A stretch of DNA of 32,795 nt, taken from Saccoglossus kowalevskii. Taxonomy: Eukaryota; Hemichordata; Enteropneusta; Harrimaniidae. This document shows, in pieces, positions 3,201 to 32,795 of the stretch. Each line of letters opens with the position of its first letter. The first letter of the stretch is position 1. The position numbers and the translations under genes were made by a program. The stretch spans positions 899,779 through 932,573 of the forward strand of contig NW_003119426.1 in assembly GCF_000003605.2 (NCBI RefSeq), read 5' to 3'. The notes beneath the pieces are model-generated. The model was not told where the DNA came from. It worked only from the letters and a program-made list of their open reading frames with translations, and did not search any database.

Positions 3201-6200
3201 TGCCGGTATCGTTGGTGGGTCTTTACGATAAACTTTCAATTTATCTGCAATGTATCCATTAATTCCTAATTGTAGGTTGTCCTTCCAGCGTGGATCATGA
3301 AACAATTCCGTAACAGTACTATTTTTGATCTCATCGTCAGTCATTCGGCCATCATGGATGATAACGTTACCCGGCTTTCTGTTTGCATAACTGCTCTTAC
3401 TGTACTTTGACCTGCTGGAATCAGTACTGACAGTGGTGCTGACAGTGGTGCTGACAGTGCTGCTAACAGTGGTGCTAACAGTGGTGCTGCTGCTTTTCTC
3501 TGGCTCGTCTAGGTTCATCATGTTGCTAAAACTTAGTTTGGGTGGAGGAGTACTGTCAGGTATGTCCACTGATGGATCATTGAGTTTAAAAAGAATGTCC
3601 AATGCCACATCAACTGTATATGAATAGAAGAAAAAAAAGACAACGAAATAAGAAACAACACCCACTATTAATTAAGCAAAAATAAAGAAAGTTCAGAGTA
3701 CATGACATGAAAACAGGATTATTCAGTGGTGTCAATTTATCTACGGGTAAACGTAAAATGTCATAAGCAAGAAGCTGAGCAAACAGTTTATTATCAATCC
3801 TATTTGAAAGGATTGAATATCGATGATTGGTAAAATATAATTGTCATCCAATTGTAAACACAGCAACCAATTTTAGTACATGTACAATATTAAAATATCA
3901 CAGTATTATGGCCCTTCTCAAAGGTTTACAATTTCAACAAAAGAAGTAGCTGACTGTTTGTCTGAGGCAAATAACCATTACTCAGTCAACAGCAAATACA
4001 TTAATATTGTCACATTGTATTAACATGTTTAAGACATCATGTTTTTTGGAGAGCAGATAAAATTAGATTCCTGTCATTAAGTAATACCTTTTCAAAGGGC
4101 AAACAACAGGCCATATATCATAAATATGCATATACCGGTACACTATACACTCAGAAGTACTTGTCGAGATAGCAACTCTTCCAGCTTGAAATTAAACATT
4201 TAGCTGATGTAGTGAAACATGTCATATGGAATTCAGGGATTGATGCTATGTGCATTTGTCCAATATGATATCTGATGTATACTGTAAAAAGATTAATTAT
4301 TCACTGGGTTTTAATTTTGCTTATTTCGCTGACTGGAAAATGCGCTATTAAAATTAAAATCCAGTGAATATGTAAAACTTAGCATAGAACACATTATCTA
4401 AATGATAAAACCATGAATTTAAAACCCACTGAATATGCATGAAATGCTAAATCAGCAAAATTTAAACCCAGTGAAAATTAGTTATTTTACAGTATGTGAA
4501 GTTTGAACTTGATCAGTCCAGGCATGTCAGAGATATGGAACCGGAACTGCATTCTTTAAAACAAAACATACTACTTGTCATTTATTTTTATATTGTTTTT
4601 CGATGGGCAAATTTCATTTCTGACTATAACCCTGCTGTATGAGACAATACTCGTCTGGAATATCTGATATCTTGTATCGTCCAATCCATATCCTACATAG
4701 GACAGAGTGGTGGAATATTCGAGTCATAATATTTCAATAATTAACTTTAAGGCAAACTGAAATAACAATCAATATGTTACATACCTTTAAAGTACTCTAT
4801 ACATGGACAATAGACACATTAAAACATATATGTATATGTATGGTAAGCCATGCCATACAGTTATTGCTATTTAACAAAACCGAATAAAGTGTGATTTAAC
4901 CTCAAAATCTGAATTGAACATTTCAAATGCGCAATGAGCGTAGGCGTGCATTATGCAAACATGTACAGACAAGTCCTAATTGTGATATTTCAACCAATTT
5001 GATTAATCTTTCACCCGTTTAACCAATAAATCTTTACATACCAAGGTCACTTCAGTATGATTTAAAAGCCCCTTAAAATAAACTATTAAGTCACAATTGA
5101 AAAAAAAAAAATTCTAAATAGTTGGCACAATGTTTTAATTTGTCTAATAATAATTTTGGAACATAAACTTTGAGTATACTTTGTATTTTAGTCCATTAGT
5201 TTGACAAAATTTGTGTAGTCATAGAAACCAAAATAGTTTTATTGCCTTATATAATTTATCATATGGTGGTGTAGTCAGGTTTTTGGTTTCTGATCAGTAT
5301 ACACAAACAGTTTAATCAGAGGTCACACTGGCCTTGCTGATCCTAAAATACATGTGGCCAAATCAGGTGTCCTCTAGATGTTATATCTACCTCCCCCAAA
5401 CATAACAATCTACAACAAAAAATAGATTTAATTATATTTATCTTCATTTAGTAACAAACAAGAATTTATCAGATTTAAAAGCAAAATTATCAAACAGTGG
5501 TTCACATGATAAAAATGTTCATTCGAACATAAATTTGGGAGTCATAGTATTTATTTACCAATTGACCGTTTTGATCAAAATTGTCTTCTCCCAGTCTCTT
5601 ATATGTACATGTACTCAAATCTGAATACAGTTGTTTACTCTGTCATTGTTAAGTTGACTTGTTAAGTTTATTGTGAACATACTTCTTCAAGATCTAGATT
5701 TAATACTGAGACATTATTTATTTTGATTTCTTCATTTTCTATCTCTATATGTCTATACAAATAATAATATTATCTTTATTACATTTTAATGAATAATGAC
5801 AGTTCATCTTAAGTTGAAATAATAAAGTATATAAAAGTAGAAGTACAAGACAATAAAGACACAGATCAAAAAAAAAAGAGTACTACAGTGTATATGTTTA
5901 CTAAATGAAGTTTTTAAATAATGAACAACCTGTCTGATCAGGTGTATGTCTTGAGTGTTCATTGTTGGAATAAACTTGTTTGTCTTAGATAGGTAATCAA
6001 AGTCTAGAATTTGTTTCGAGAAATGGCGATACATTTTTGCACGTTCATAACTGTTGCAGGTTGTAATAAAATGAATTTCATTTCCCACAATATTGTACTT
6101 TTAGCATAGTCTATCCTCCTTAGGTAATTTAGGTCGTTTCTAGCTTATGGTTACTTAGTCTGAGGTGTGACATCATTTGAATATCATTTATGTTTAAATC

Positions 6201-13799: not shown

Positions 13800-14380
13800 N
13801 NNNNNNNNNNNNNNNNNNNNNNNNNNNNNNNNNNNNNNNNNNNNNNNNNNNNNNNNNNNNNNNNNNNNNNNNNNNNNNNNNNNNNNNNNNNNNNNNNNNN
13901 NNNNNNNNNNNNNNNNNNNNNNNNNNNNNNNNNNNNNNNNNNNNNNNNNNNNNNNNNNNNNNNNNNNNNNNNNNNNNNNNNNNNNNNNNNNNNNNNNNNN
14001 NNNNNNNNNNNNNNNNNNNNNNNNNNNNNNNNNNNNNNNNNNNNNNNNNNNNNNNNNNNNNNNNNNNNNNNNNNNNNNNNNNNNNNNNNNNNNNNNNNNN
14101 NNNNNNNNNNNNNNNNNNNNNNNNNNNNNNNNNNNNNNNNNNNNNNNNNNNNNNNNNNNNNNNNNNNNNNNNNNNNNNNNNNNNNNNNNNNNNNNNNNNN
14201 NNNNNNNNNNNNNNNNNNNNNNNNNNNNNNNNNNNNNNNNNNNNNNNNNNNNNNNNNNNNNNNNNNNNNNNNNNNNNNNNNNNNNNNNNNNNNNNNNNNN
14301 NNNNNNNNNNNNNNNNNNNNNNNNNNNNNNNNNNNNNNNNNNNNNNNNNNNNNNNNNNNNNNNNNNNNNNNNNNNNNNNN
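13800..14380. other. Assembly gap (N)
   Basis: 581 undetermined bases between the divergent genes. Open frames running across it are artefacts. Confidence 1.
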
Positions 14381-15660: not shown

Positions 15661-15699
15661 TACCGGAAGGGCGGCTTATTTCCGATTCAAAATGGCGGC
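15661..15699 (+). promoter_or_regulatory. ETS site and TISU-like initiator at septin start
   Basis: ACCGGAAG (15662-15669) is an ETS-type site 23 bp before the ATG. The start codon lies in CAAAATGGCGGC (15688-15699), one mismatch from the TISU/YY1 consensus SAASATGGCGGC used by mRNAs with very short 5'UTRs. This suggests a TATA-less promoter with the transcription start close to the ATG. Confidence 0.45.
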
Positions 15700-15718
15700 T
15701 GAAGTGGAGCGAAATGCT
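15692..15718 (+). CDS. SEPT6-like: Septin exon 1
   Basis: Nine codons, MAAEVERNA, then GCT|gtaagt, phase 0. The short first coding exon is plausible for this family, since the conserved domain starts in exon 2. Confidence 0.85.
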
Positions 15719-18700
15719 GTAAGTAGCGAAGTTTTCATGCTTTTCCTATCATATTTACCACATTTTCCCACTGTTGTTACGTCTTTCGGACAATAAACAG
15801 AATATGTACATCCACTGCTGAGTATAGGTAGAAATAATATTTATTTTTATCCTCACTAACAAAATCTCGTCTTGGACGTATTATTAAATCTGCAGACAAA
15901 AAGGTTCACACTCAAGTCAATATTGTAATGTAATATTGACTGTTTAAAACATGAAGTTGTTACTATCGGCATATAATAATTACTTATTTTACTTTCAATG
16001 TGCTTTGTTGCACCATTAATAATAACCTCAGTTCATAGTGACGTTTTTAATATTCGCACGTTGTTTAGTGATTTAAAAATAACATTAAAAAGTTGACAGA
16101 TGTTACGATAATAATATTGCCGAACAAAAAATGCTGGCTCAGATGATGCTAGCAATGGTTGGCCGCGAGTCAACTATTAAATGTTTTCGTTGATATTATT
16201 TTATTACACTGTAAATATAAATTTAGACATTGTGAGAAAATTATAGTTGTGTCTTCTTTTCTGATGTACATTTATTTCTTCTCAAAGTATTTTGAAAATG
16301 ACAATTTCAACAATATTTCCATAGTTTTAATAATTTAGTGCATTGCATCTACAACAGTGTTTTAGAATTATAGATATAATATATATAATATACACAATAT
16401 TTCTGACTCCACCCAAAATACATTATTATTCCATTATTAATTATTATAAATCATCACTATGAGAATTAGAGGTTTTTATAATGTCATTACTTTACATTAC
16501 ATGTATCATCTCTATTCATAAGTAAATTCATTCCAGTAAAAAGCCTTCAAATTTAATTGAATTTGTTTAATTTTGTTGCTTGTGATTTATAACAATGTGA
16601 GAAATCGTCTCTAAAAATCTTCAGAGAAGGGTCTTACCTTGCTGTACATGTAAACCTTTCTTGTCATATTGTGCTGTTGGGGATTTATTATTGTTTAAAC
16701 AGTTAAAAATGTGTTATTATTCCATTATTCACCAACAGTTTGATGTTAAATTTTTAGTTTGAGATTTCCAAGTTAACACGCCTTCTGCAATTTACTTCAA
16801 TATTGTTATTCTGTCTTCCTGTCACAAAATGTGTCACTGAATCAGGATGTCAGAAAGGAAGACGTGCATGCTGTGTTTACTCAAGTACAGTATAGTTGAA
16901 TCATTACAAACATACAAACTTGGTAGTTGATACACGTATTACATTTATATAGTATTTTTGGCAGCTAGGGATGTCAAAATTGCTAACATCCAGTCGCAGT
17001 GTACACCAATGGCTAAATTTCAAACTGCTATAATTCGGCTTAGTCTTTTCCACGAAACGAAACGAAACGAAACCCAAACCCTAACCCTAACTCGCATTTT
17101 TGTTTTCATTGGCCCAATAATATCTGAGAAAATTTCACACTGTGAAATACGGACGTGACGATGTTTGAGGTCGTTCAAAATCTAAGGTTAGGGTTTCGTT
17201 TCGTTTCGTTTTATTTTGTTTCATTTCGTTTCGTGGAAAAGACTAAGCCCTATAATTCGCTTTAATTTGTGAGAGACAAGTGTCAGTGACTTTCAACTAC
17301 TTTTGTAAGTAGCAAAAATTTCCCTGGGGTTCTATGACATGGCGAGTATCTGTGACACAAAAGAATGTCATTTAATGAATCAATTTGATGAGAAAACAGT
17401 TGTTCCTGCTCAAAAAAAAACAATAAGTTGTTCAGCAAATACTTTTAAATAAATAAATAAATAATTATTAATTATAATTTGATGGAATGTTTTTTTTAGG
17501 GTCCTAATACAAGGCATCTAAAGCTGCAAGGTCATGTTGGGTTTGATAGTCTTCCAGATCAGTTGGTCAATAAATCAGTTGCCCAGGGATTCTGCTTCAA
17601 TATATTATGTGTTGGTAAGTATACTTACAGCTATGTTATATCATTCAATGATTTGACGTATGCCAAGTCACTCAGCTTAATGTAATTTACCTTATTTTTC
17701 TGTCAAATGCACATCTCTAATAAGAAGGGCACATACAGGAATAATTGCTTTTATTGTATGCTGAACTATTAAAATTTTACTCATGTTGACTATTGACACT
17801 AATGTCATATACATGCACTACTAATAAAGCAAATACAGATTAGAATTAAAAATGTACTTCTCAAAGTCCTTTTCTCCTACTTAAAATACTGATGGGGGAG
17901 GTGTGTGGTAATCGTCATGATTGAAAATGTGACCCAATTTTGGTTCCTGTGTAAATAATTTGTAGTAAACCACTATACAGGGTTCTTCACGGTTTGAAAA
18001 TTAAACAGGGTGCGCCAATGTAAAGTGGGCGTGGCACATTCGTAACTTGCATCATTGGCATAGACATTGAAAAAATGGAAACCAAAAAATCTATTAATCT
18101 ACATATTATTACATATGCATAATATATATATATTTATTATTACAAAATTAATGAGAATTTTGAAGAGCTATTATTAAGTAAATGTCAGCACGTACAATCA
18201 GCTGATTTTAGCTGCACGATTCATCACGCGGCGACATCAGTTGTTTACCAGTAATGATAACGTCAAAAAAAAGACGTAAAAGTTTTACCAAATAGATACA
18301 TACATGCTTTATTTAATTTTTAGCAAAAATTGTAATTTATATTTATTTGGACATAGCAAACTAAATGATGTCGCACAAACGTTCGTAATTGGTTCATTGA
18401 AAAACTTGCATGAATGATCAAACAAAATAAAGTCTACACAATAGAAGATTTTTGATCTGCAGTTAACAGTTATTATCAAAAATAATAGAATTATGTATAA
18501 AAAAAATACATACTTAGAAGAAGAATTTTCATTCGTATCGAAAGTTTGTTGATGTCTGCTTTGTTAAAAACAGCAGTGATCCGGAAACAGTTCATTTTAC
18601 TGTGTGCATCCTGATATTATGTAACGATGCCTTTGATTGGCCAAAGCCACGCATTGACGTGAAAAACAACCAATCAGAATATTTGTTTCAAGAAAAGCAC

Positions 18701-21700
18701 AAGTAAATTTATTTCCTCCACTTATGATGCGAGTTGAAAGGATGGCTGTTTTACCAGGGTTTTTAAATAGTGATTTAAAGAAAATTCAACTTTAAATAGT
18801 GACATTCGTCAAAATATAAACATTTACATGTTTAAGCAAGCATTCATGTGGACTTCTTGGTGATCAGCAATGTCTGTGATGGTACGTCGACTGCGCTGGT
18901 CGTTTACTGATCGTGCAAGAGCATGGCTGCCTTTGTTCCGCTCGGCGGTGACGATGTTGCTGCTACCAGTCACGACGTGAACTTGGTTTTAACCATAGAT
19001 CTTATGTTTTAACGAATGGTTTTACCGATAAAGATTTTATATATTTGACTTCACCCTGGCAGTAAAAATATGGGTACGGTAATACACTTTTCTAGGCCAC
19101 ATGTTCATTTTTAATCGTGTAGAAAAAAACTTGCAACTTTTAGTTCGGTTGTAACATAGATGTACTAACAAGCCGGAATTTTCACACCTTAAAACAATGA
19201 ACCAGTTACCCTGAGCACGATGAATCATCTTCGGAAGACAATGAGTGATGGCCTGTTTTGTAAACAATTCTTTGTCTGGGACCATGCAGGGCGCCAATTT
19301 CAGATAACAGGGCGCGGGGCCCTGTTAAAACCCCTCGTGGAGAACCCTGACTATAGTAAATTTAATTGCATAGATTCAATGAATCAAAGTTTTAAGTGGA
19401 ATTCAAAATATAAAAATTTAGTAATGTGTCTGAAAAATTTTGTCTAATTTCAGTGCTTTAGAACATTAAATTGTGATGGATTCAGGTGCTATATGAAGAC
19501 TTTATTACTTTTAATGCATGCTTCTACATAATGAAAAAAATGCAATGCAAACTATTTATTAGGCAATGAATTGACTTTTAGGTGAAACTGGTCTTGGAAA
19601 GTCCACTATGATGGATACACTATTTAACACAGAGTTTGAAAGTGACGCTGCACCCCACACATTGCCTGGTGTGAAACTGAGTGGCAAAACATATGGTAAG
19701 AATAGTGTCTTCAAGTAATACAAACCTTTGTTACCGATATACTGTAAATGCATTAATTTTTTTCACTATGGACACAAAATAAAAATAGATTGACACTAAG
19801 CTAGTGTGTAATTTTGATGACCCACCGAGAAATTTGTCACCGAACCTTGATAGAACACTGCTGACTAATGGTCTTTAATAGGTGTGTCAAGTAGAACAGT
19901 ACAGTGATGGAATTGTTGACAAGTAAAAACCACATTACTATTTTATTGGCGCGATGGCTGTTGGTGTGTTGACTACTGTCAAATACTTTATTTTCGCTTG
20001 GAATTAATTTTTGCTGAAGGAATGATTCAGTGAAAATAAAATCTAGCTAATTTCCTATATTTTACACTAAACTGGTCAGAAATCAGTGAAAATAAATTCC
20101 ACACAAAACACCCAAAAAGTCTTTTCAGCAAAAATGAATTCCAGCTAAAATAATTTCACAGTACATTAGTCTACTATCTATTTCAATGTACACTCACTCA
20201 TCTTAATATTATATTACAGATCTTCAAGAAAGTAATGTCAGACTCAAGTTGACTGTTGTAGACACTGTTGGATTTGGGGATCAAATTAACAAGGCAGACA
20301 GGTATACCCTTTACCAGTGGATTTCTTTGATATATGCTAGAAAAAAAACTTGCACAATCTTTAGATCTGACCATTACCAAAACAACATTCAATACCTGCT
20401 AACAGTGTACCCTTGAAGTTGCACAGAACTATTATGTGACACAACTAGCTGTTTTGGTGCAACAATGATGCAACAGAAAATTTCACGTTGATATAGTAAT
20501 CTTCAAAAACATCTTAGTAATGGAATTTGTAATTTTTTAATCTAATATTCAAATATGAACAAAATATGTGTAAAAAAATCTCAGGAAATTCTTCTTAAAT
20601 ACCTATCTCCCTAGCAGTCACTGTGGTGTCCCAACCTTTCGGAATTCCTTTGTCACTCAAGATCTATACAAAACCAGTCCTGCACATTGCCTAGTAAACT
20701 CGGCATTGTATACCTATTTTTCTTTTCCTTTGTTTGCAGCTACAAGTCAATCGTAGAATATATAGACCAACAATTTGAAAATTACCTGCAAGAAGAATTG
20801 AAAATCAAGAGAGCTATTCATTGTTACCATGACGCTCGTATCCATGCCTGTCTTTATTTTATTGCGCCTACTGGTCATTCATTGAAGTCTCTAGATTTAG
20901 TTACGATGAAGAAATTGGACAGTAAAGTCAATATCATCCCTGTCATTGCCAAAGCCGATACTGTATCTAAAGGAGAGTTACACAAGTTTAAAATAAAGGT
21001 TTGTGATAAAAATCAATTCTGCACGCTTTGGTACTTCATATGCTTTGTTGAACCTTTTCAGTTTTGTTGTCAACATTGGTTGACATCCACACAATAGTCA
21101 GACCCAGAGCAGTGTTTTGTTCTTGTAGCATGCAAGCAATAGCTGATTTATGTTCACTGCAAGGTTTCGCGTAATGCATAAACTGTGCAAAAATTAAATA
21201 ATTTGATTAAGAACCTGAATTTTTTTCAATATCAAAATGCTAATTTATGGAAATATGCCATTGCGTTCCCCTTACTTCATAAAAATTGACTATCTGCAAA
21301 TGTGTGTTGCACATTATTGATCTTGGAAATACCCCAAAAAGTAATTTTGTGTTTGTTGAATTCTATGCAATGTTTTGATGACTACAATGCTATGACCTTT
21401 GTCCTGGTTTTACATTTGATGTTCATGCACAGAATCTTACAGTAAACAGAAAATCTGCCTGATAGGGATTTGGATCATCATTTTGTGATTTAGTATGTAG
21501 TCAGGTGTCACCGATGACCAAAGCCTCTATCTTCTAATTTTGTGCAATAAAATTGACAGAATTTAGTTTAAATATTATTTTGTCACTTCATTCCAGATTA
21601 TGAGTGAGTTAGTTAGTAATGGTGTACAGATTTATCAGTTTCCCACGGATGATGAGACAGTAGCTGAACTAAATTCAACAATGAATGTAAGTAGTCACTG

Positions 21701-24597
21701 TTTATCTCATTCATATTTTATTTTTTCCTCTCATCAATATAGTGCAAGATACTGAGCTATATAAGGTTATCATGAAATTATCGTAAATTATTATTATACA
21801 TCTGACATAAAACAGTAAAATTCATCCATTCGTGAAACACTCTACAGACAAGTTCAATAATGTTGCGCATTTGAATGTTTTTCTTATTTGAAAAATGTTC
21901 ATGTTTTTGTCACATTTCAACATGACACTGAGTGTCAGCAATTTTGCGAAATTTTGTTTTCACAGAATGTCCTAAAATTCTAAAATCATGAAAATTAAGG
22001 TGTTTACAGTGGACATGTATGTTGGTATTGTAGTTTACTCCCATTTTAAATTTTGGAATAAGTACAAATTGCAAATGTATTCAACAAATGACTGCTAAAG
22101 TCTATTGTTTTACTGGCTGGTTATCATGTGAATAAAGTTATGTTTTTGTACATTTAGGGTCATTTACCATTTGCTGTTGTTGGTAGCAATGAAGAAGTGA
22201 AGATTGGTAATAAAACCGTGCGAGCAAGACAGTATCCATGGGGTGTTGTACAAGGTAAGTAGGACATTAATCTGTAAAAATCTGTATTCACAGTATCAAA
22301 CACCTACGCTGTGATATTAAACCTGTCATATGCTTGGCTTAGAATGTATGTTTTCTTTACAGTTGAAAATGAGTCACACTGTGACTTTGTTAAACTGCGC
22401 GAGATGCTGATACGCACAAATATGGAAGATTTGATTGAACAGACTCATGCACGTCATTATGAGCTTTACAGAAGATGTCGTCTTGAAGAGATGGGCTTTG
22501 TTGATAGTCATCCAGATGGTAAAGCATCAAGGTGAGTCAAGTATATTATTGTGTGTTGTTGTATAATAATGTGCTTAATGTAAAACGTTTTATTTTCGCT
22601 GCTATCAATTTTCGTGGGGTGATGATGATAGAATAAAAAGATCTCATGTCATAATGACCTAGATGAAACATTTACCTAAAATTTTGTAATTTCCTTGTCA
22701 AATTTGGATAGATAATCTTGCACCACCAAGTTCCATGTGACGATATCATAAATTTCGCCTTCCTAAACACCAAACGCCTTCCTGAATGTTCTGTTGATCC
22801 TTTGTACGTGTATTTTTTTGTATTTATTCTGTTTATAACAACACAATGATTTCCTTTAATCTTGGGACTTAATAAATTTATTTCTATTGGAAGAGAGACA
22901 TTACCATAATGCAGGATACATTTCTTTATAATGCCTCACCTGTGAATGCTTTGATGCTCTACAAATGACTGAAATATTTCCTTCATTATAATCAGTCTAC
23001 GGCATTTTTGGAAATTTTAGGTTTTAAAATTGTGCCCCCTCTGAAGTATCAAAGTTGAATCACTGATAATTGTTTTTTTTATTCAATGTATAGTCTTCAA
23101 GAAACCTATGAAGCCAAGCGAAATGCACATATGCAGCAATTACAACAGAAGGAAGATGAGATGAGACAATCTTTTGTTGTCAGAGTTAAAGAGAAGGAGG
23201 CAGAACTTAAACAAGCTGAAAAAGAAGTGAGTAGATAACAAAAATATGAGGATACTTAAACTTTGATAGTGTATGGATCGTATACATGAGGTGACAGTAT
23301 TGTAGGTGCATTGACCTATGTCTTTGCTTGTAGCTTTCATGCAACAACCTTGTAATAATATTTGACAATAAGTCAAAAAAATTGACTATAAAAGCCTAGT
23401 GATTTTTACGTCACAGTTTTGTGTTGATAACCGTTGATTTGGCATAAGTCAAAAAAATTGACTATAAAAGCCTAGTGATTTTTACGTCACAGTTTCGTGT
23501 TAATAATCGTTGATTTGGCATGACAACCCCCAACTTTTTAATACTGCAGATTAAAACAATGATATCCTGAACCTGTTCATGTCACAAAATTGTTTCATTG
23601 TTGGAGAGTGTGACTTGTCACCTACAAAACACATCCATGTCCTGCTGTTTCTTAGATACAAGAAACTTTATGTCTGACTATAAAAGTTTTTTTATCATAA
23701 ATCTGTAAGACTATGTTTGTCCAGATCTGCAATGAGTAGAACACGTTTGTGTTTGACTCGAACAGGCCAAGTAGGATTGATATTACAAATTAATATATTG
23801 AATGTTTGGTCACTAAATTGTTCTCCATAATTTCATGATTTTACAGTAGTACTTTTCATTCACCTGCATACATGTATTTTAAATAGTCATTGACAGTCAG
23901 CACATTTATTGCTAAACAGCATTTATCAATCACTGACTGCACATATTGTATAAAATCTTACTATCTTTTACACCTTAGTAACTTTGATGTTTTCTCCAGG
24001 ACAAGTGAAGCTAAATATTAATTTTGTTAATGCATAAAATTGTTGCAATTAAGAAACTTTAATGCACATCTTGGTGTGGTCACTGAGCTCATTGTATGCA
24101 AATGATACGTTAACCTTTTCACCACCAGTTTTCCCTCTTTTCATCACAAATTCACAAATACCGGTAATTCTGTTTATAGTCTGCATTATCTTTCAAAAGA
24201 TCGGGACAAAAATAACCTAATTTTTTAAGTAAAAACTAAAATTTGACTCAAATTATTTCCATTGGCTTCTAAATTGGGGTTCATTTCCAGAAATATTGAA
24301 GAATACAAGAAAAAAGTGCAGAAAAATTTGGGCGAGAAAGTCTGGTGGTGAAAAGGTTAATAAAAGGAACACGGATGATAATGCTGTCTTTCACATTTCT
24401 TCCACACACAGTTACACGAAAAATTTGACAGTCTCAAAAAACAGCACGCCGAGGAAAAGAGAAAACTGGAACATCAACAGAACAAATTGAAAGAGGAACA
24501 AGATAATTTTGTTAAAAGGAAAATGATATATGAGCAGGAAGTATTAATGGCCCAGCAAGCCGCACAGTCACAGACAATCAAGGGCAAGAAAAAGTAA
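15692..24597 (+). CDS. SEPT6-like: Septin, SEPT6 group (isoform A, ten exons, 423 aa)
   Basis: Exons 15692-15718, 17500-17614, 19582-19695, 20220-20301, 20740-20998, 21597-21686, 22158-22254, 22363-22531, 23094-23226 and 24412-24597 join with GT-AG introns and matching phases into 1272 bases. The protein is a filament-forming GTP-binding cytoskeletal septin. The SEPT6-group helix [12 protein letters not shown] lies at 21-32. The P-loop GETGLGKS is at 48-55, DTVGFGDQ (G3) at 100-107 and AKAD (G4) at 183-186. The septin unique element with RQYPWG is at 253-258 onward, and a charged coiled coil covers about 318-410. Length and segments such as [20 protein letters not shown] match SEPT6/8/10/11. 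Aligned by eye to catalytic septins, the switch-I threonine is replaced by Gly77, as in the non-hydrolysing SEPT6 group. Such septins pair with SEPT7- and SEPT2-type partners. The ATG at 15692 is chosen for position and context. A spliced alternative 3' end is listed separately. Confidence 0.97.
15719..17499 (+). other. Septin intron 1
   Basis: 1.78 kb, AT-rich. Contains the foldback element at 17037-17249, a short (AAAT)n tract at 17447-17463 and an 8-bp inverted repeat GTCTTCCT/AGGAAGAC at 16813-16863. Confidence 0.85.
17037..17249. mobile_element. Foldback MITE with telomere-like units and 9-bp target duplication
   Basis: Both ends begin GGCTTAGTCTTTTCCACGAA (26 identical bases), followed by CGAAA repeats and then CCCTAACCCTAA on the left and CCCTAACCTTA on the reverse-complemented right arm. 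The element is flanked by perfect direct repeats CTATAATTC (17028-17036 and 17250-17258). A 9-bp duplication and long inverted ends fit a Mutator-like (MULE) derivative. Non-coding, 213 bp. Confidence 0.88.
17500..17614 (+). CDS. SEPT6-like: Septin exon 2
   Basis: Residues 10-47 plus one base. The acceptor is tttttttag and the donor GTTG|gtaagt. Carries the alpha0 region [16 protein letters not shown] and the first GTPase strand FCFNILCVG. Confidence 0.97.
17615..19581 (+). other. Septin intron 2
   Basis: 1.97 kb, mostly made of the inserted element at 17978-19349. The remainder is AT-rich with no other feature. Confidence 0.85.
17978..19349. mobile_element. Non-autonomous DNA transposon, CAGGG termini, 1.37 kb
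   Basis: Left end CAGGGTTCTTCACG, reverse-complemented right end CAGGGTTCTCCACG, then TTTTAA and ACAGGGYGCGCC-like blocks in both arms. ACTATA directly flanks both ends (17972-17977 and 19350-19355). The ends resemble hAT elements, but a clean 8-bp duplication is not visible. The interior has a GC-richer patch (18880-18980) and no transposase. Confidence 0.6.
19582..19695 (+). CDS. SEPT6-like: Septin exon 3: P-loop and switch I
   Basis: Residues 48-85 plus one base. The acceptor is gacttttag and the donor TATG|gtaaga. Encodes [20 protein letters not shown] and the switch-I segment HTLPGVKL, which has Gly77 where catalytic septins have Thr. Confidence 0.97.
19974..20163. mobile_element. MITE family A, copy 2, inverted, in septin intron 3
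   Basis: Begins TACTGTCAAATACTTTATTT and ends in ACAGTA. Its reverse complement aligns along nearly its whole length with the 658-876 element, including the internal CTGAAAAGACTTTTTGGGTG segment (copy 1 reads CTCTTTGGG). It ends only 56 bp before the exon 4 acceptor of the septin gene. Confidence 0.85.
20220..20301 (+). CDS. SEPT6-like: Septin exon 4: switch II (DTVGFGDQ)
   Basis: Residues 86-112 plus two bases. The acceptor is attacag and the donor ACAG|gtatac. Contains the G3 motif DTVGFGDQ. Confidence 0.97.
20302..20739 (+). other. Septin intron 4
   Basis: 438 bp of AT-rich intron. Nothing beyond splice signals. Confidence 0.8.
20740..20998 (+). CDS. SEPT6-like: Septin exon 5: central GTPase domain, AKAD
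   Basis: Residues 113-199. The acceptor is gtttgcag and the donor AAG|gtttgt (non-consensus beyond GT). Includes [20 protein letters not shown] and the guanine-specificity motif AKAD (183-186). Confidence 0.97.
20999..21596 (+). other. Septin intron 5
   Basis: 598 bp. Exon 5 reads open 99 bases into it before a stop. No other feature seen. Confidence 0.8.
21597..21686 (+). CDS. SEPT6-like: Septin exon 6
   Basis: Residues 200-229, containing [20 protein letters not shown]. The acceptor is cattccag and the donor AAT|gtaagt, phase 0. Confidence 0.96.
21687..22157 (+). other. Septin intron 6
   Basis: 471 bp, AT-rich. Nothing notable. Confidence 0.8.
22158..22254 (+). CDS. SEPT6-like: Septin exon 7: start of the septin unique element
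   Basis: Residues 230-261 plus one base. LPFAVVGS forms the last GTPase strand region and [11 protein letters not shown] opens the septin unique element (Trp257-Gly258). The acceptor is catttag and the donor CAAG|gtaagt. Confidence 0.97.
22363..22531 (+). CDS. SEPT6-like: Septin exon 8: septin unique element
   Basis: Residues 262-317 plus two bases. [20 protein letters not shown] and [11 protein letters not shown] are hallmark septin-unique-element segments. The acceptor is ctttacag and the donor CAAG|gtgagt. Intron 7 before it is only 108 bp. Confidence 0.97.
22532..23093 (+). other. Septin intron 8
   Basis: 562 bp. GTTTTATTTTCGCTG and TCAATTTTCG near 22588-22614 look like a decayed arm of MITE family A. 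Confidence 0.5.
23094..23226 (+). CDS. SEPT6-like: Septin exon 9: coiled coil, part 1
   Basis: Residues 318-362, containing [10 protein letters not shown] then a Gln/Glu/Lys-rich helix ([15 protein letters not shown]). The acceptor is aatgtatag and the donor GAA|gtgagt, phase 0. Confidence 0.96.
23370..23521. repeat. 76-bp tandem duplication
   Basis: Units 23370-23445 and 23446-23521 differ at three positions, all transitions. Each starts with the palindrome GTCAAAAAAATTGAC and contains TTTACGTCACAG, a CRE-like site. Confidence 0.93.
24110..24360. mobile_element. piggyBac-like MITE, 251 bp
   Basis: TTAA at both ends (24110-24113, 24357-24360) directly followed inward by CCTTTTCACCACCAG in inverted orientation. 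The TTAA target and CC(Y)TTT terminus fit piggyBac-type elements. No transposase. Confidence 0.8.
24412..24597 (+). CDS. SEPT6-like: Septin exon 10: coiled coil, part 2, and stop
   Basis: Residues 363-423 ending KGKKK-stop. The acceptor is ccacacacag. Continues the charged helix ([20 protein letters not shown]). The final codon AAG plus TAA reads AAGTAAAT, so the stop also forms part of a possible donor with its GT at 24594-24595. Confidence 0.95.
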   Translation, partial: LHEKFDSLKKQHAEEKRKLEHQQNKLKEEQDNFVKRKMIYEQEVLMAQQAAQSQTIKGKKK

Positions 24598-25282
24598 ATG
24601 AGTAGTTCTACCTACTTTCATGTAAGCAATGTATGCTACAATGCTCACTGCTAGTTCAAAACACTTACAACTATCAAGATAAATGCACTTTTGTATAAAT
24701 CTGAAATATTTATCATGCTTCTTGGATAAAGCATGTCAAAAAATTCCTTGCATGTCTTTTTTTTCTTTTGAAATGAATTTGACTATTTATTATGTTCTAA
24801 ATGATGAATTTATTGTAACCGGCTACAATTCATGCATGATTTCTATTTTTCACATACATCTGTGAAGGGATAAAACCTCTCGGTATTTCAAAGAGTTGCA
24901 TTTATTGATGGTTGTTGTCTCCAATATTTTATGTTGTACACACATTTTATGTTGGGTGTTGGGTCAGTGCATGCTAACCTTATCTCACTGCCATTTGTTG
25001 TCTTCAGCATCTCAATCCTATTCATATTCAATGCATACCCGTGGATGGAATTAGCATGTCCCACTTGTTTGTAACTTTATATCAATTTGCATCTAGGTTA
25101 TCTTATGAATGCAGTGGTGGGTTGATCGGGGTGGTGCGAAGTTTGAATTGTGCTCGTTATAGTAAAAATTTTGTTGGCATTAATGTTCATTTGCAGTTTT
25201 CTGTAATGTTTTTCTATTTTTTGTGGACATGTTATTTTTCTTTGTTTAAATATGCCATTTTTTGTTTGTATATTGCAATAAA
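24598..25282 (+). other. Probable 3'UTR of septin isoform A
   Basis: Follows the exon 10 stop without interruption and ends at an AATAAA signal. No coding potential. Confidence 0.5.
25277..25282 (+). terminator. Candidate polyadenylation signal, isoform A
   Basis: AATAAA with T-rich sequence (AAACATTTTTTTTCC) about 20-30 bp downstream, 680 bp after the isoform A stop. Confidence 0.45.
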
Positions 25283-25921
25283 GCACTAGTTCCCTAAACT
25301 TTAAACATTTTTTTTCCTGAAATATGCTTACTAATATAAATTAAGTAGTATTTGTATGGCAAGTCTGTGGTGTAATACTGCAATCTGCAAGAGTGTGGGG
25401 ACCATTAACTAAATTAGATGCAGTATTCCCATGTCAAAACATTGCACGACAACTTATTTTATTCTGTAAATTAAAAAGACTGAAATGTTGTACCTAAAAA
25501 AAAAATACTCTAAAAACAATGAAGAGAATGAATGAGAATCTAGGTAATGACTGAACTTGTCAAGAAGAGAATAAAACTATGCTTCCTTATATCTTGCAGA
25601 GTTGATCAATTTAACACAAACTGACTGTATCAAATACTTTCTTTACATGCAAGGGAACGTTTTAATGCATGGTCAGAAAACAGTAAATAACTACTACGGC
25701 CATGCCATGTACATAACGATGTATTCTTAAAAAGTTAAAACTTTATTGTGCATGTTGAGTTCTTGGTGTGTGAATGGTTGGTCCTAATAGAATTCCTAAT
25801 TACCCCCTGTTTCTACCTTTTCTGTACTCCAGTTGTGATTACCGTTATTATTTGTGGTGATCCAGAAAACCTCAGAGAATATCAGCAGTTAGCATCTGCA
25901 GCAGACAGTATTGTCTATGTT

Positions 25922-26011
25922 TTAACCCATTCACTGCCTTTGAATGGAATGACCCCCAATTACTATTTATGGGCTATCCCATCTGTTTGAAAATGGGGGT
26001 GAAAGGGTTAA
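25922..26011. mobile_element. Short piggyBac-like MITE, 90 bp
   Basis: TTAACCCATTCACTGCC at the left and, reverse-complemented, TTAACCCTTTCACCCCC at the right, with TTAA at each boundary. The same general type as 24110-24360, but a different sequence. Confidence 0.65.
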
Positions 26012-26501
26012 GACTGGGTTTCACAGTAAATTACTGCACTATGTATTTGTGTGTGTAAATAGCTGCCATTCACATTTCATGCTAAGTATAATAACAATCA
26101 TCTTCATCATAATTGACTTGCATATGTTCATTCTCATAGTGGTCTATGCTTCGGATGTGTTCTGTATGGTTTATGGAACGGTGTGTAGCCAACCGTTCAG
26201 AAGAGACTCAGCATTTGATGCAAGAATTTCAGAGGCACACATGAACACACCTTGAACCTTATCTACCTTTTAACTCATTGTAATTAAAATAATAACCATC
26301 AACTACTTGTACTTACCGTCATATAATCTACTTATACATCTTGTAGATCTTAGAAAAATGTACTTAAAAATTGTATGCACGCTTGATGCACACTACATTT
26401 CAGTTTTATACATTGGTTCACTAATGTTTATTATTATCACTGTTGATGAGCAAAATTGTGACTATCCCACTGAGCAAATTTATTGCAAATCTTAATAGTT
26501 A

Positions 26502-26638
26502 CTGCATTTGCTCTATTAATAACACATATTCTCATTCAAATAACAGTCGTGTGTCTGTTTTTATGATCTTGTATACAATACATGCAACTGTTGGTTTTTG
26601 TATGCTTTTTATTTGTACTTCAAATAGAGCAAATGCAG
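26502..26638. mobile_element. TA-flanked MITE, 137 bp
   Basis: Perfect 16-bp inverted ends CTGCATTTGCTCTATT, flanked by TA on both sides (26500-26501 and 26639-26640), fitting a Tc1/mariner-type element. A single related arm occurs at 31431-31450. Confidence 0.82.
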
Positions 26639-29500
26639 TATGCTTACTACCCAAATTTTGGTAGTTACTGTATTTAGATCGATTTTTGTGTGGTAGTCAT
26701 GGCAACTGTGGTGTACTCACAAAAAAAAAAGCAAGTCGTTCATTGTCATTCTTTCTTCCTGCATATGTAAGAAAATCTTAGTTGTCTTGGTTTGCCTATC
26801 GAGAAGACTAAAGTAGCTGGTTCATGTAGCAGTCTCATCGAAGACAAGTTTCTCAAATCAGAAAAGCAGCTGAGAAGTAGACTGAATTAATACGAATAGT
26901 GGCTTGTATCAGTTTTTGCTGTTATGTCATGCCTTATGTGAAAGCTTTCTCTGTAGGCTGGCTATTGAAGAACTACAGTGTACAGATAGTAGTACTTATT
27001 GCAGTCTTCCTGAGAAAATATTCTTTGACTTCTATCTTGGGAGATGTTTTGTGATGTGTGTTGCATAGCGCGTCAAGTTTCACTTTCTGTAGAACATTGC
27101 AATTGGGGATGAAATAATATTACTAACATCATCGTAAAAGTTGTTTACAATTAAATGCACATGTTGAAATTCTTCTGTTCTATCCCCTTCGCATCAACTA
27201 CACACTGTTGACACTAAGTTTTCTTCTTGTCCAAATTATGTGACCAATCCTTTATACATACTAACACTTTCCCAAGTTTTGTTATTGAAAGTACATGACC
27301 AACCTTTATACACTTCAACTATAATTGTATTCATTTTGTGTGTTTGAACAGTGGTCCAATAACTTTGAAATCTCCAGTATATAGTGGAGAAATATACTAT
27401 TATTGTATGTTTAATTAATGCAACTATTATAGCAAATAGTAGACAGAAAGTATTGTTTTTTTTTTTTAGAATACAACCAAGGACCATGTGCATTCTTTGG
27501 ATTCAGAGATTGTGTTAACCCCTGGACCTCCATTATTATGGAGGAACTCAATTTCTGTACACTGTCCCATTTGTTATAAACAAATGCGTAGAATAAGACT
27601 CTACACAAAAGTTCTAACGCAGTCCCTGATTGCTGTGTAAACTTGTAGCAAACTGACAAATACGCTTTGCTGTCCTTGGTTGTATTTAGATCTGTAGAAA
27701 GCTTTATGTTTAAACTTTCTTAAAATACCTGTCTATGCAATGTTTTTTTACATGTGTATTTATAATAACTTAGGTTACATTTAATGACTAAAAATGTATA
27801 AAGCCCTAATTCCTGCTACAAGTATAATGGATTAAGTTCTCATAGACCATAGACCATATTCATAATTTAAGTGTATTGTGTAATGGTTTTGACCAAATTG
27901 GATCTTGATTGAACACAACTCTGCTTATCACAAAACATCTGTGCAACCTGAACTATCTATTTCATAATGCAACATTGTGAATTGCAATATGGTCTATGTA
28001 CAGTAAACCTTAACTTTACTGTATGTTAACATTAAGGACTGTTATTCCTCAATAAGTTTGTATGAAATGTCTTTCTAAACCAAACTATGTTCAGTCTCTT
28101 CTGGCGTAAAGCATAGACAGATTTTATTATACCAAAATTCATATTTTGTTTCACAACATCACATATATCACAGCATTTTTTTTGTGCCATTTCAGTAAAG
28201 TTAACTCCACTTGTTACATTTCACATGCTGGATCCATTGCTTTAAAATGTCATGTTGTAATTGAAAAATCAATGCTTACTCCTCGATGAGTGGTTGCGAT
28301 CAATGCTTGCCAAGCCTCGAAAATGACAAGTTAAAACAGCACTGATTCTAATTTCTGCCATTGCAGACAATCAATGTTAATAATTTGTAAATGATTCCCT
28401 CTAAGCAATTTTTGTACTGTGCAATTTTGCGGTTTTCACCAAGAAATTTTGTACCATGTAATGAAATTTGACTGCAACATGGTGATGTCACTGAGCTGTG
28501 CAAAAATGAGTTTAATGTTGAGAATGGAGTCAGGTGTAAAATTATAAAATGGTGCTCCATCAATGACCAATTTTAACTCGATCCTTGATTTTTTTGTGTC
28601 TGTGTGAATATGTTGTAGCCCATTTCCTTCAAACCTATTTCTATGCTGGGTTATTTGAAAATGTTCTTGTCCTTGTAATTTATGTGCAAAGGAGCAGCTA
28701 ACCTGAAATCAATCTTTATTACAAAGCTGTGTACACAGATATTAATCCATAAGTTGTTGGGAACACCATTTAGTGCAAGGGACGTCAATGTGCTTTTATG
28801 TAAATGAGGTCTTTAAGTGTTGGCAGCTAATCATTCATAAAGGGGTTTGCGTGTGCGTATAAATGTATCAATAATTTTCTATAAATTACATACTATATTG
28901 CTGTTTCTACCTTATTTCTTACTCTGAAGTTATTTCAAATGTTACCGTATCACCTCTCTGACCTTCCCAGATCAGTACCAAGCATTACCACATTCTGCCA
29001 ACCTGTCTAAATGCAATCTTTAGCCAGCCGCAGCCATGAGGTTCACAATTCTTGCATTCTTTTCAACTAACTCCATACATCTGGTAAACCAAGTGATAGC
29101 TCATAGATACTAATAGAAGTGTATTTGTTGTTGATAAATCTTTGGCAATCAAAGTTAATTTCAATGTACTTTACAAATGTACTTAACTTTGTATTTAGAT
29201 TTGATGTGCGAGTTTATGACATGCGCCAGTGTGAATTTCAAGCAACTACAACTTGAAACACCCAAATTCTGTTTGAGTGACATTGTCACTACACAGAAGT
29301 AAAGGTAGAATGGCTTGTCTATCTTTAATGTCAATTTGGCTTGAAATTGGAAAAAAATTGGAAAAACATCTTTGTAGTGAAAGTATTACGTTAAACTATG
29401 AAAAAAAAAACTGGAAAGAAGATAACAAAATTTGTACATCTACTGGTGTTTCAGTTATCCCGACGTGTTGCTTTTTGTTTTTTTTCTTGTTTATTTATAG

Positions 29501-29591
29501 AGTGCCAGTGGAGAATACTTGCATGGAACTGGCCATTCCAGCACACCGTAGTAGACCGGTTACAAATCCTAAGAAATGTTTGGTTTCGTGA
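29501..29591 (+). CDS. SEPT6-like: Alternative septin terminal exon 11 with CAAX box (isoform B)
   Basis: A very strong pyrimidine tract (29470-29493) and TTATAG precede this segment. Splicing from an exon 10 donor at 24593|24594 (AAAAA|gtaaat) leaves two bases, AA. The first base here, A, completes Lys423 and the frame continues VPVENTCMELAIPAHRSR and on to TGA at 29589-29591. Isoform B is 452 residues. Its last six residues are K447-K448-C449-L450-V451-S452, a CAAX box with a basic residue pair before it, of the kind farnesyltransferase favours (X = Ser). The phase match, acceptor strength and terminal CAAX together argue for a real exon. The donor is only moderate (A at -1 and +5), which suits regulated use. 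No transcript evidence is available here. Confidence 0.62.
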
Positions 29592-31711
29592 TGAAAATAC
29601 GTAACACTGATGAACATGAATGTGTCACGGTGATTATTGTGCTATATTACCCATGATGCCCTTTGTTTAGCTTTTATGTATAATTGCATACATGTCGGGT
29701 ATACTTTGAAGGAACTGAGTACCCCCGTAAGAATAAGACAAACTTTTGTGGTTGCATAACTCAAATGCATGTATTTGCATCTATTCATCTAATTCAGTAT
29801 TATTTGGCATGTATCAGTGCACTATTCATTTCTCTCATGCATGGCTAACGCGATTGTTTACAGGCTATGTTGTGCTAGAATTTTTGGGGGATATGGTTTT
29901 TACTTGGTGATAACATTTGAAGTAACGTCAGGGACTAAGAGATGGTGTAAAAACAGATTTGTAATGACCACAGGGTTACTGCAGAGTAGAACAGGGTTTT
30001 GACATGTGCAAGACTCACTTCTGTTTCAAAATTGCTGTTTGTGAAATTCAGTTAATGTTATGACTATTTAGCCTACTGACTGCCATCATTTCTGAACCCC
30101 ATTTTTCGGTGCCATGGATGTCAGTTTTTTAAACTGAGTGCAGCTGAACCGACCTGTGTTTGATACAAGTCGTGTGCTTTTTGTACCCAGTCCCGATGAT
30201 AGATGGACTGTGATGTACCTGTAAAATGCATTGTTGATACAAAATTTGACTACATGCTGCAATAACCATTATAGCAGATGCTTGACATTAAAACAAACCA
30301 TCCATAGGTTTATTAAATGAACAGTTTTTGAATACAGTATTGTATCTTGCACATTGCCATCATTTGTATAAACTTCACTTTTACAGTTTAGTAATATTAG
30401 ATTGTCCATGTGTGTATTGCTAGGTTCCACTGGTAGGGAAAGGAGGGACAGACTGACTGACTGACCGTGGTAATATCGGAAGAAAGTACCAGACAATAAT
30501 TACGACGACAATGCAAACAGTACTACCCGAATTGAATCTCTTTCAAAGGTGCAACGTTTCACCCCTGTGTTGTAATGGTATGTCCCATAAGTTGTCCTTT
30601 GTTAGCATCATGGGGGTGAGAAAGATTTATTTCTATGATACATTTGTATTTAATTAGAGATGTTATTTTCTATTTGGTTGTCATTTGTGTGTCCATCACA
30701 TTTTGACCCCATTCTAAAGTATATTTTGAGTACTGTGCAATGAATCTTGAGGATACAGTGTGAAGTTTGGAATCAGTGAGGAAATATACTTGTGCTAGTG
30801 TCTCTCCACTGTGACCTAGAATCGTTACTCTGATTACATATGCATGTTGTGGGAGTGACAGGGTTAGTACTAAACATAAATTGTGCATAATGTCTTTTAC
30901 TTCACTCTTTTTTGAAAACTTTTTAAACCATCAAAATTAAGTACAAAACTCAAATTGATTTGGATTTCTTTATCTTCAGCATTAAATTATCTCTTCCATA
31001 TATACATATTCAATTCAAATCGTTATTTTTGTACAACAATATTAGTGATAAGCATAAGTGTAATTTTATTTTACAGTAATGTTTTATTGTATTTGTACCA
31101 TGCTTCAATTCTAGTGTTTATGACATTTAATATATTACATCTTAAAAATCTCATTATAATATACTGTTATAATAAGTCTGTTCAAATGAGTCCTACATTT
31201 TGAACCAAGCATTGTCAAGGAGGTAAAACATGAAAAAGTTGGTAAAAAAAATAAACAGGTTTTGTATCTCGTGTGCGATATGAGCAAATTCACATGCTAA
31301 TCACCAAATACCATATCTCCATCTCCAATTAAGGAACATGTCAACTGAAAATTTTTTTGCTTGGATTTTCGGTCACATCAAATTTATACTGATCCTGTTA
31401 ACTTTTCTTCATATCACATGTACTCTATTACAATAGAGCAAATACAGTGAAGGAATTAACTTTAATTTGAAGCTAAAAATGTTATGGGATAATTTGTCTA
31501 GACCACTACTTATATTCTTCTGATCACAACTGTGTTGAAGTTATAATCTCACTTGAATGTTATTAATTTTAAAGCTGCCATGTATTGTGTAATTCTGTTA
31601 TCTGATAATCAAAAGTTTTTTTTGTTTTTTTTAACTGTGTAAAAAAATTTATTATATAGAATAATGTTTGAGATGTAGGCTGGTATTATAATATTGTTTT
31701 GTATTAATAAA
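29592..31711 (+). other. Probable 3'UTR of septin isoform B
   Basis: About 2.1 kb after the exon 11 stop with no convincing coding region. AATAAA occurs at 31250-31255 and 31706-31711. 31431-31450 carries a single arm (CAATAGAGCAAATACAGTGA) of the MITE at 26502-26638. Confidence 0.4.
31706..31711 (+). terminator. Candidate polyadenylation signal, isoform B
   Basis: AATAAA followed within 30 bp by a T/GT-rich stretch (GTCTTTTTGTTTGAG). An alternative signal lies at 31250-31255, also followed by GT-rich DNA. Confidence 0.4.
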
Positions 31712-32795
31712 TATTGTTTTACTATTCATCTCAATGTCTTTTTGTTTGAGAATGATGTACATTGTATGTTATGAGAGAAATGCTTGTAATTTGTGAATGT
31801 CCATTGCCGAGATACTGAAAGACCCATTTTATTGTAGGTCTTCAAATTCGGACAATCTAATACCCATCTTCATACAAAGAACATGCAAAAAGTTTATAAT
31901 TTCTGTTTTAATTAAACGGTTCTTTGTTTTGGAGATCCCCCGTTCGTACATTTCGTCTCGTTTTTGAAAAGAAACTTTGAAAAGTTTATATTTTCATTTA
32001 AGCTTGCATAAAGTGAGCACTTTTCTTATTCAATCACATGTCATCATAGCTTGATTATCTTGATTTAAAAGACAATTGGAAAGTGTTAGTTGATCAGTGT
32101 ATAGAATTGCACGCTGTACACATTAACAATTTAAGATATACATCTAGGTCTGAAATTAACACTTGTTGAATGATGAAATTCCCATGATGCATTGCATATG
32201 AGGTAAACATTTTTTGGGAATGAACAAAGAAGTGATGCACAGCACAGCAAGAATTAAATGGACCCCCTGTTAGTATAAGTAGGCTGGAGTTTTAGGGTTG
32301 CAATGGACTGAAGTTAAATGTTTTCGCAAAATTCTCAATATGGCTGAACCAATCAACACACAAACCTTTAATTGAACCCAGTGAATCCACTTTCACAGTA
32401 ACTGGATTAAATTTGGGAGTCGGAGAGTATAGCATGTGTGACTTTAAAGATAAGCCATGCATGGCACAGTCCCCGTTAGTTATCAAATTTAAGATGTATA
32501 GTTTTGTTTATAGTAATATAGCTGGAATATAACCATGACAGGAATATGATTTTTTAACATTAAAATGATTGACAGTTGTATCTGATCGTCAAACAAGTAC
32601 ATGTCCATATTGAGAGATATTGCTCTGGAACAGCATTAAAAAATCAGCCATTTTGATTACATGTATATATATAACGTATAACGAATATATAAAATTTAAA
32701 TATAATAAGTCAGAGCATTTAAGAGATATGGCTCTAGAAGCCCAATCAAAATGGCCGCCAGTCAGGCATTTTGAATCCAATCTGAAAAATAAAAT
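31712..32795. other. Downstream region
   Basis: AT-rich with no recognised gene. From about 32610 to the end, two related segments (GAGATATTGCTCTGGAA at 32615 and GAGATATGGCTCTAGAAG at 32723, each followed by an AAAATGGCCGCC-like or CAGCCATTTTG stretch) suggest a diverged repeat. Confidence 0.45.

Follow-up and report, generated by a model that had tools for sequence, protein, structure and literature searches.

The described systems closest to the one considered here are septins whose transcript isoforms carry a membrane anchor. In mouse Sept8, NOVA promotes the use of exon 10b; this exon codes for a palmitoylated motif (C469/C470), through which the 10b isoform promotes dendritic branching and spines (PMC6092797); moreover, the choice of Septin8 polyadenylation (poly(A)) sites in mouse brain is specific for cell class (PMC10691540). 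In C. elegans, an isoform of UNC-61 carries a transmembrane domain, according to PMC11238149, which cites Perry et al. 2023 for it. Together, Sept8 and UNC-61 establish that a septin isoform can bear an optional membrane anchor; a prenyl anchor would be new. In this work we describe a septin gene in a stretch of 32,795 nucleotides (nt) from the acorn worm Saccoglossus kowalevskii (contig NW_003119426.1; the whole stretch is hereafter called the window), which may encode, besides its ordinary product, an isoform ending in a CaaX box. A preliminary description of the same DNA had named polybasic or amphipathic segments as the normal route of septins to membranes; it omitted two known exceptions, the palmitoylated splice tail of SEPT8 (PMC6092797) and the transmembrane isoform of UNC-61 (PMC11238149).

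The gene occupies positions 15692-24597 of the forward strand, and is divided into ten exons; its product is a septin 423 residues long with the C-terminus SQTIKGKKK (isoform A), the TAA stop codon of which is found at 24595-24597. Joining 24593 to 29501 keeps the reading frame and yields a predicted protein of 452 residues (isoform B), with a 29-residue tail (VPVENTCMELAIPAHRSRPVTNPKKCLVS) that ends in NPKKCLVS; the stop codon of the tail is at 29589-29591, and Cys449 stands exactly four residues from the C-terminus (CLVS-stop). According to the usual aaX rule, CLVS is a CaaX box of the farnesyl type. The phase of this join, the KKCLVS tail, its coordinates and the position of Cys449, all of which had been proposed in the preliminary description, were re-derived from the sequence. 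The corresponding intron would span 4,907 nt, more than any other intron of the gene (108-1,967 nt for these nine).

The acceptor ending at 29500 (TTTTTCTTGTTTATTTATAG) was scored with a matrix built on the nine acceptors of the gene itself (29501 being left out) together with a prior, and it was compared with sites from 19 loci of this genome, 187 kb in all, on both strands. It reaches 6.3 bits, more than five of the nine real acceptors; just 47 of 11,400 sampled AGs (0.41%) score as high, and it ranks second among the 308 AGs within 24601-31730, behind one at 27470. These values bear out the earlier claim of a strong acceptor. A candidate distal terminal exon with a good acceptor and an in-frame junction is present at the level of sequence.

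The preliminary description had also argued that coincidence was less likely. As null, an order-4 Markov model was trained on a sample of the genome and used to produce 321 Mb of sequence, in which phase-2 tails of at least eight residues were counted and rates expressed per 7.1 kb. With acceptors that equal or exceed the weakest real one of the gene, 0.035 tails with a broad CaaX and 0.012 with a strict CaaX are expected; if the acceptor must match 29501, the values drop to 0.0056 and 0.0019, respectively, and if any phase is admitted the broad CaaX is expected 0.11 times. In terms of simulated acceptors, 1,598 (broad) or 546 (strict) out of 277,826 are followed by such a tail. In natural sequence (374 strand-kb), 218 acceptors reach or surpass the weakest real one and open 130 phase-2 tails of the same minimum length, five of which have Cys at position -4 and one a broad CaaX, and the 47 acceptors as good as 29501 open 25 tails, none with a CaaX. 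Chance alone is therefore a poor explanation of the tail, with 0.0019-0.035 in-phase occurrences expected per 7.1 kb. Furthermore, the guanine plus cytosine fraction of the tail is 0.46, versus 0.32 and 0.37 in the 300-nt flanks, and among 91-mers 1.3% of the local ones and 5.3% of those sampled from the genome attain this value. According to these data, the CaaX at the end of the predicted frame is confirmed and goes beyond chance, while its interpretation as a prenylated isoform is plausible, although unproven; we put the reality of a CaaX isoform of this septin at slightly less than an even chance.

The assignment of the gene rests on a Pfam search, which placed the septin GTPase domain (PF00735) at residues 38-305 (E 3.3e-98), and on a comparison with the PDB, in which the top chains were human SEPT6 (2qag_B, 698 bits, E 4.5e-209) and Ciona SEPT6 (9bht_B, 662 bits, E 3.6e-198), with the Septin chain 4kv9, SEPT11, SEPT6 and SEPT8 among the further close ones (SEPT8 itself being a member of the SEPT6 group). 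Lower matches were 8dkt_B, named Septin-2 (475 bits), which we take to be fly Sep2 and itself of the SEPT6 group, the Septin chain 12zn_A (389 bits), and human SEPT7 (318 bits), SEPT2 (266 bits) and SEPT9 (244 bits). The match extends over the length of the protein, coiled coil included, and on this ranking the gene is a SEPT6-group septin, as it had been correctly labelled before. The human and Ciona SEPT6 chains represent the same protein up to the Lys-rich end. The latter stops at KKK, and its TGKKK aligns with KGKKK, which favors the view that exon 10 with its own stop codon is an ordinary end of the protein; the former (427 residues) extends four residues beyond the aligned part. Neither matches the tail, and each represents a single isoform.

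Compared with mouse Sept8 (PMC6092797), the locus shares the membership of the SEPT6 group and a C-terminus changed by an alternative last exon, which is predicted here. In Sept8 the addition of a lipidated tail by the distal exon and its regulation by an RNA-binding protein (NOVA) have been shown by experiment; for the acorn worm gene a lipidated tail and a regulation by an RNA-binding protein are predicted. The lipid of Sept8 is palmitate on the CC pair C469/C470; the tail of isoform B, in contrast, has no CC pair, and its candidate lipid is a prenyl group on the CaaX cysteine. Moreover, exons 10a and 10b of Sept8 are joined to exon 9 through alternative acceptors, whereas the tail would be joined to a donor within exon 10, and Sept8 has NOVA sites (YCAY) where the present gene has UGCAUG. 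UNC-61 resembles the predicted isoform B in being a transcript isoform of a septin with a membrane anchor, but its anchor is a transmembrane domain and not a lipid (PMC11238149). The CaaX tails of the Ras type (HRAS and KRAS4B) share with the candidate a polar linker some 25 residues long, basic residues and the C-terminal CaaX; unlike them, the candidate tail would sit on a filament-forming septin and would be optional by splicing.

If isoform B is made, we can depict the following scenario. Regulators of splicing or polyadenylation would let transcription pass exon 10 and would allow the 24593 donor to be used; this splice would remove the stop codon, so that the septin would gain the 29-residue tail, a polar linker ending in KK-CLVS. 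Farnesyltransferase would then tie the tailed subunit to membranes, an attachment to which the lysines of KGKKK and KK close by would contribute as in Ras tails, and the UGCAUG clusters at both ends might make the switch an Rbfox-type, tissue-restricted one. Exons of the Prenyltrans family (PF00432) occur on three contigs of the genome and are not assigned to farnesyltransferase itself. In its full form, the proposal is that the choice between the donors 24593 and 24621, which are separated by 28 nt, decides whether a SEPT6-group subunit has the KGKKK end or a farnesylated KKCLVS end, this choice probably being controlled by an Rbfox-type protein; we hold it tentatively, and with more doubt than the existence of the isoform.

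Several observations weigh against a prenylated isoform, starting from the donors; the preliminary description had mentioned neither the weakness of the one within exon 10 nor the existence of a better one downstream. The donor at 24593|24594 (AAA|GTAAAT) scores -1.3, under all nine constitutive donors (0.59 to 8.4), and it is matched or exceeded by 15% of the sampled genomic GTs and, on a slightly different background, by 111 of the 1,120 GTs of the window; any Lys(AAG)-TAA end writes GTAA by itself, and thus this donor is not independent evidence. A stronger donor, 24621 (CAT|GTAAGC), lies 24 nt beyond the stop codon; joined to 29501, it would excise an intron of the 3' untranslated region (3'UTR) and leave isoform A unaltered. 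On the acceptor side, the top acceptor-like site of the region is the T-run at 27470 (8.3-8.4 bits), which gives no CaaX, and in the last 60 nt before 29501 a yUnAy branch point is absent at the usual distance, occurring only 3 and 7 nt away. The codon usage of the tail does not resemble that of coding sequence: among 8,204 null stretches free of stops, 12.7% have a score as high, and just 7% of the coding windows of the gene score as low, with a score in whose training two blocks held an in-frame stop, having run into introns. The poly(A) signals are not clearly above chance, with five AATAAA versus 8.3 expected and eleven ATTAAA versus 8.8 expected in 24598-32795.

The motif evidence has two sides. 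Among four motifs counted, UGCAUG, the Rbfox site, stood out. Three copies occur in 24598-25000, versus 0.11 expected, a count found in two of 896 null bins; the stretch 29501-30000 contains another three, versus 0.14 expected; in the two stretches combined it is the top hexamer (six versus 0.25 expected, Poisson 2.9e-7; two for the reverse complement), ranking first in the first stretch and third in the second. These stretches were picked post hoc, the cluster in 24598-25000 having been spotted by eye before the count and that in 29501-30000 not, and if the first is widened to 24598-25276 the motif falls to the sixth place. UGCAUG may act in introns or in 3'UTRs, and thus the clusters support a regulated RNA processing rather than the CaaX frame as such. 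YCAY is enriched in intron 10 (79 versus 52 expected), and likewise in the earlier part of the gene, 15720-23093 (118 versus 78).

The main rival explanation builds on the same facts: 29501 would open a non-coding 3'UTR exon spliced from the 24621 donor, the 423-residue protein alone would be made, and the CaaX frame would be coincidental. This donor (3.85 bits) exceeds four of the nine real ones and is equalled by 1.25% of the sampled GTs; at 24 nt past the stop codon the junction would be too close for nonsense-mediated decay under the usual 50-nt rule. A 3'UTR exon accounts equally well for the acceptor and the UGCAUG clusters, and it fits the unremarkable codon usage of the tail. It leaves the CaaX itself to chance, in spite of the small fraction of simulated acceptors that are followed by such tails. 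Moreover, natural sequence contains 3,749 open stretches of 20 codons or more; a broad CaaX closes 46 of them, and none of the 46 (hence none of the 3,749) combines it with two K/R directly ahead of the Cys and no more than one hydrophobic residue among the preceding ten. This last pattern was defined after the tail was known. On balance, we regard this explanation as unlikely, although it is the strongest of the alternatives.

Less probable still, and decidedly unlikely in our view, is that exon 10 is an ordinary last exon with its poly(A) signal near 25277, the 29501 acceptor being a chance pyrimidine tract beyond the gene. The Ciona SEPT6 chain stops at the same KKK, an AATAAA is indeed present at 25277, and about 0.9 acceptors as good as 29501 are expected by chance per 7.1 kb, a better one standing at 27470; such a reading, however, requires the CaaX, the phase, the linker and the UGCAUG clusters to coincide jointly. 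Finally, that the tail is coding with its Cys unprenylated, altering the coiled coil or the binding of partners, is very improbable: alternative C-terminal tails of mouse Sept8 do work via a different lipid, but a CLVS placed precisely at the C-terminus, preceded by KK and a polar linker, resembles a prenylation signal, and the 29 residues show no other resemblance in PDB or Pfam, though so short a query has little power.

Other joins were considered and rejected. From exon 9 straight to 29501, the frame reads SASGEYLHGTGHSSTP-stop, with no CaaX. The 27470 acceptor gives a 15-residue tail ending in RLC from the exon 10 donor; from exon 9 it opens a frame of 56 residues, for which Pfam has no match at E 0.1. 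As for the origin of the tail exon, the tail peptide and the DNA of 29441-29640 have one match each in the 572-Mb assembly (the DNA search skips very common words), so the exon is unlike a repeat, a repeat or transposon origin is unsupported, and no second, spliced copy of the tail was seen in these searches. The exon 5 peptide gave 59 pattern matches in prokaryotic and 24 in viral contigs, with no relative confirmed; these are the wrong collections for this question and say little. A longer human SEPT6 isoform may end in NPWLCTE, faintly like NPKKCLVS; this resemblance is not used as evidence, and no paper with these letters was found in the open-access literature searched.

The coordinates of the features are collected in Table 1.

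Table 1. Features of the septin locus, in positions of the window
Feature	Position	Strand	Basis
Septin exon 1 (start codon, MAAEVERNA)	15692..15718	+	
Septin exon 2	17500..17614	+	
Septin exon 3 (P-loop GETGLGKST)	19582..19695	+	
Septin exon 4	20220..20301	+	
Septin exon 5	20740..20998	+	
Septin exon 6	21597..21686	+	
Septin exon 7	22158..22254	+	
Septin exon 8	22363..22531	+	
Septin exon 9 (coiled-coil region)	23094..23226	+	alignment to the SEPT6 chains of human and Ciona
Coding part of septin exon 10 (isoform A, ending KGKKK-stop)	24412..24597	+	C-terminus aligned with TGKKK of the Ciona SEPT6 chain
Weak alternative donor GTAAAT, written across the stop codon TAA	24594..24599	+	donor score
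Stronger donor GTAAGC, possible 3'UTR intron	24622..24627	+	donor score
Three UGCAUG (24749, 24833, 24968)	24749..24973	+	motif count
Candidate poly(A) signal AATAAA for isoform A, weakly supported	25277..25282	+	
Acceptor with U-rich tract	29481..29500	+	acceptor matrix score
Candidate tail exon, coding part, ...NPKKCLVS-stop	29501..29591	+	in-frame translation
Three UGCAUG (29520, within the coding part of the tail; 29766; 29838)	29520..29843	+	motif count
Candidate poly(A) signal AATAAA for the tail exon, weakly supported	31706..31711	+	

Elsewhere in the genome, a search with PF00735 found other septin exons on at least three contigs (C177, C4616, C3298); by eye, they look SEPT2- or SEPT9-group-like, with no clear SEPT7 among the matches listed. 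The assembly also holds a COX1 frame that stays intact when read with the invertebrate mitochondrial code (the reading of ATA as Met being judged by eye), as expected of an animal. Within the window, a run of N (13800-14380) lies upstream of the septin start, and an inverted repeat at 17030-17256 (43-nt arms, 88% complementary, 141 nt spacing, runs of CGAAA type) resembles by eye a miniature inverted-repeat transposable element. In intron 9, a 76-nt unit is tandemly duplicated with 96% identity (23368-23519). On the minus strand, 2904-3671 holds an open frame of 255 residues with the start of a P-loop at its C-terminal end (LMRGLPGSGKSTLAR); its match to AAA_33 is weak (E 0.0046, below the cut-off), and it is perhaps an exon of a NEDD4-binding-protein-2-like gene.

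No prenylated septin was found by title or by the start of the abstract among the matches listed in the open-access literature searched, which leaves most subscription journals and preprints outside. The terms "prenyl" and "CAAX" are absent from the main texts of two septin surveys (PMC3868516, PMC6323724) and from the available part of PMC11238149, and the available parts of PMC10924143, PMC8060510 and PMC5898269 hold nothing on septin prenylation. The recruitment of septin filaments to membranes is under active study. If the predicted isoform exists, it would be a direct anchor, testable with a farnesyltransferase inhibitor, and the optional lipid tail of Sept8 would have a counterpart with another lipid in another animal; if its splicing is switched as proposed, cells could tune how tightly septin filaments hold the membrane.

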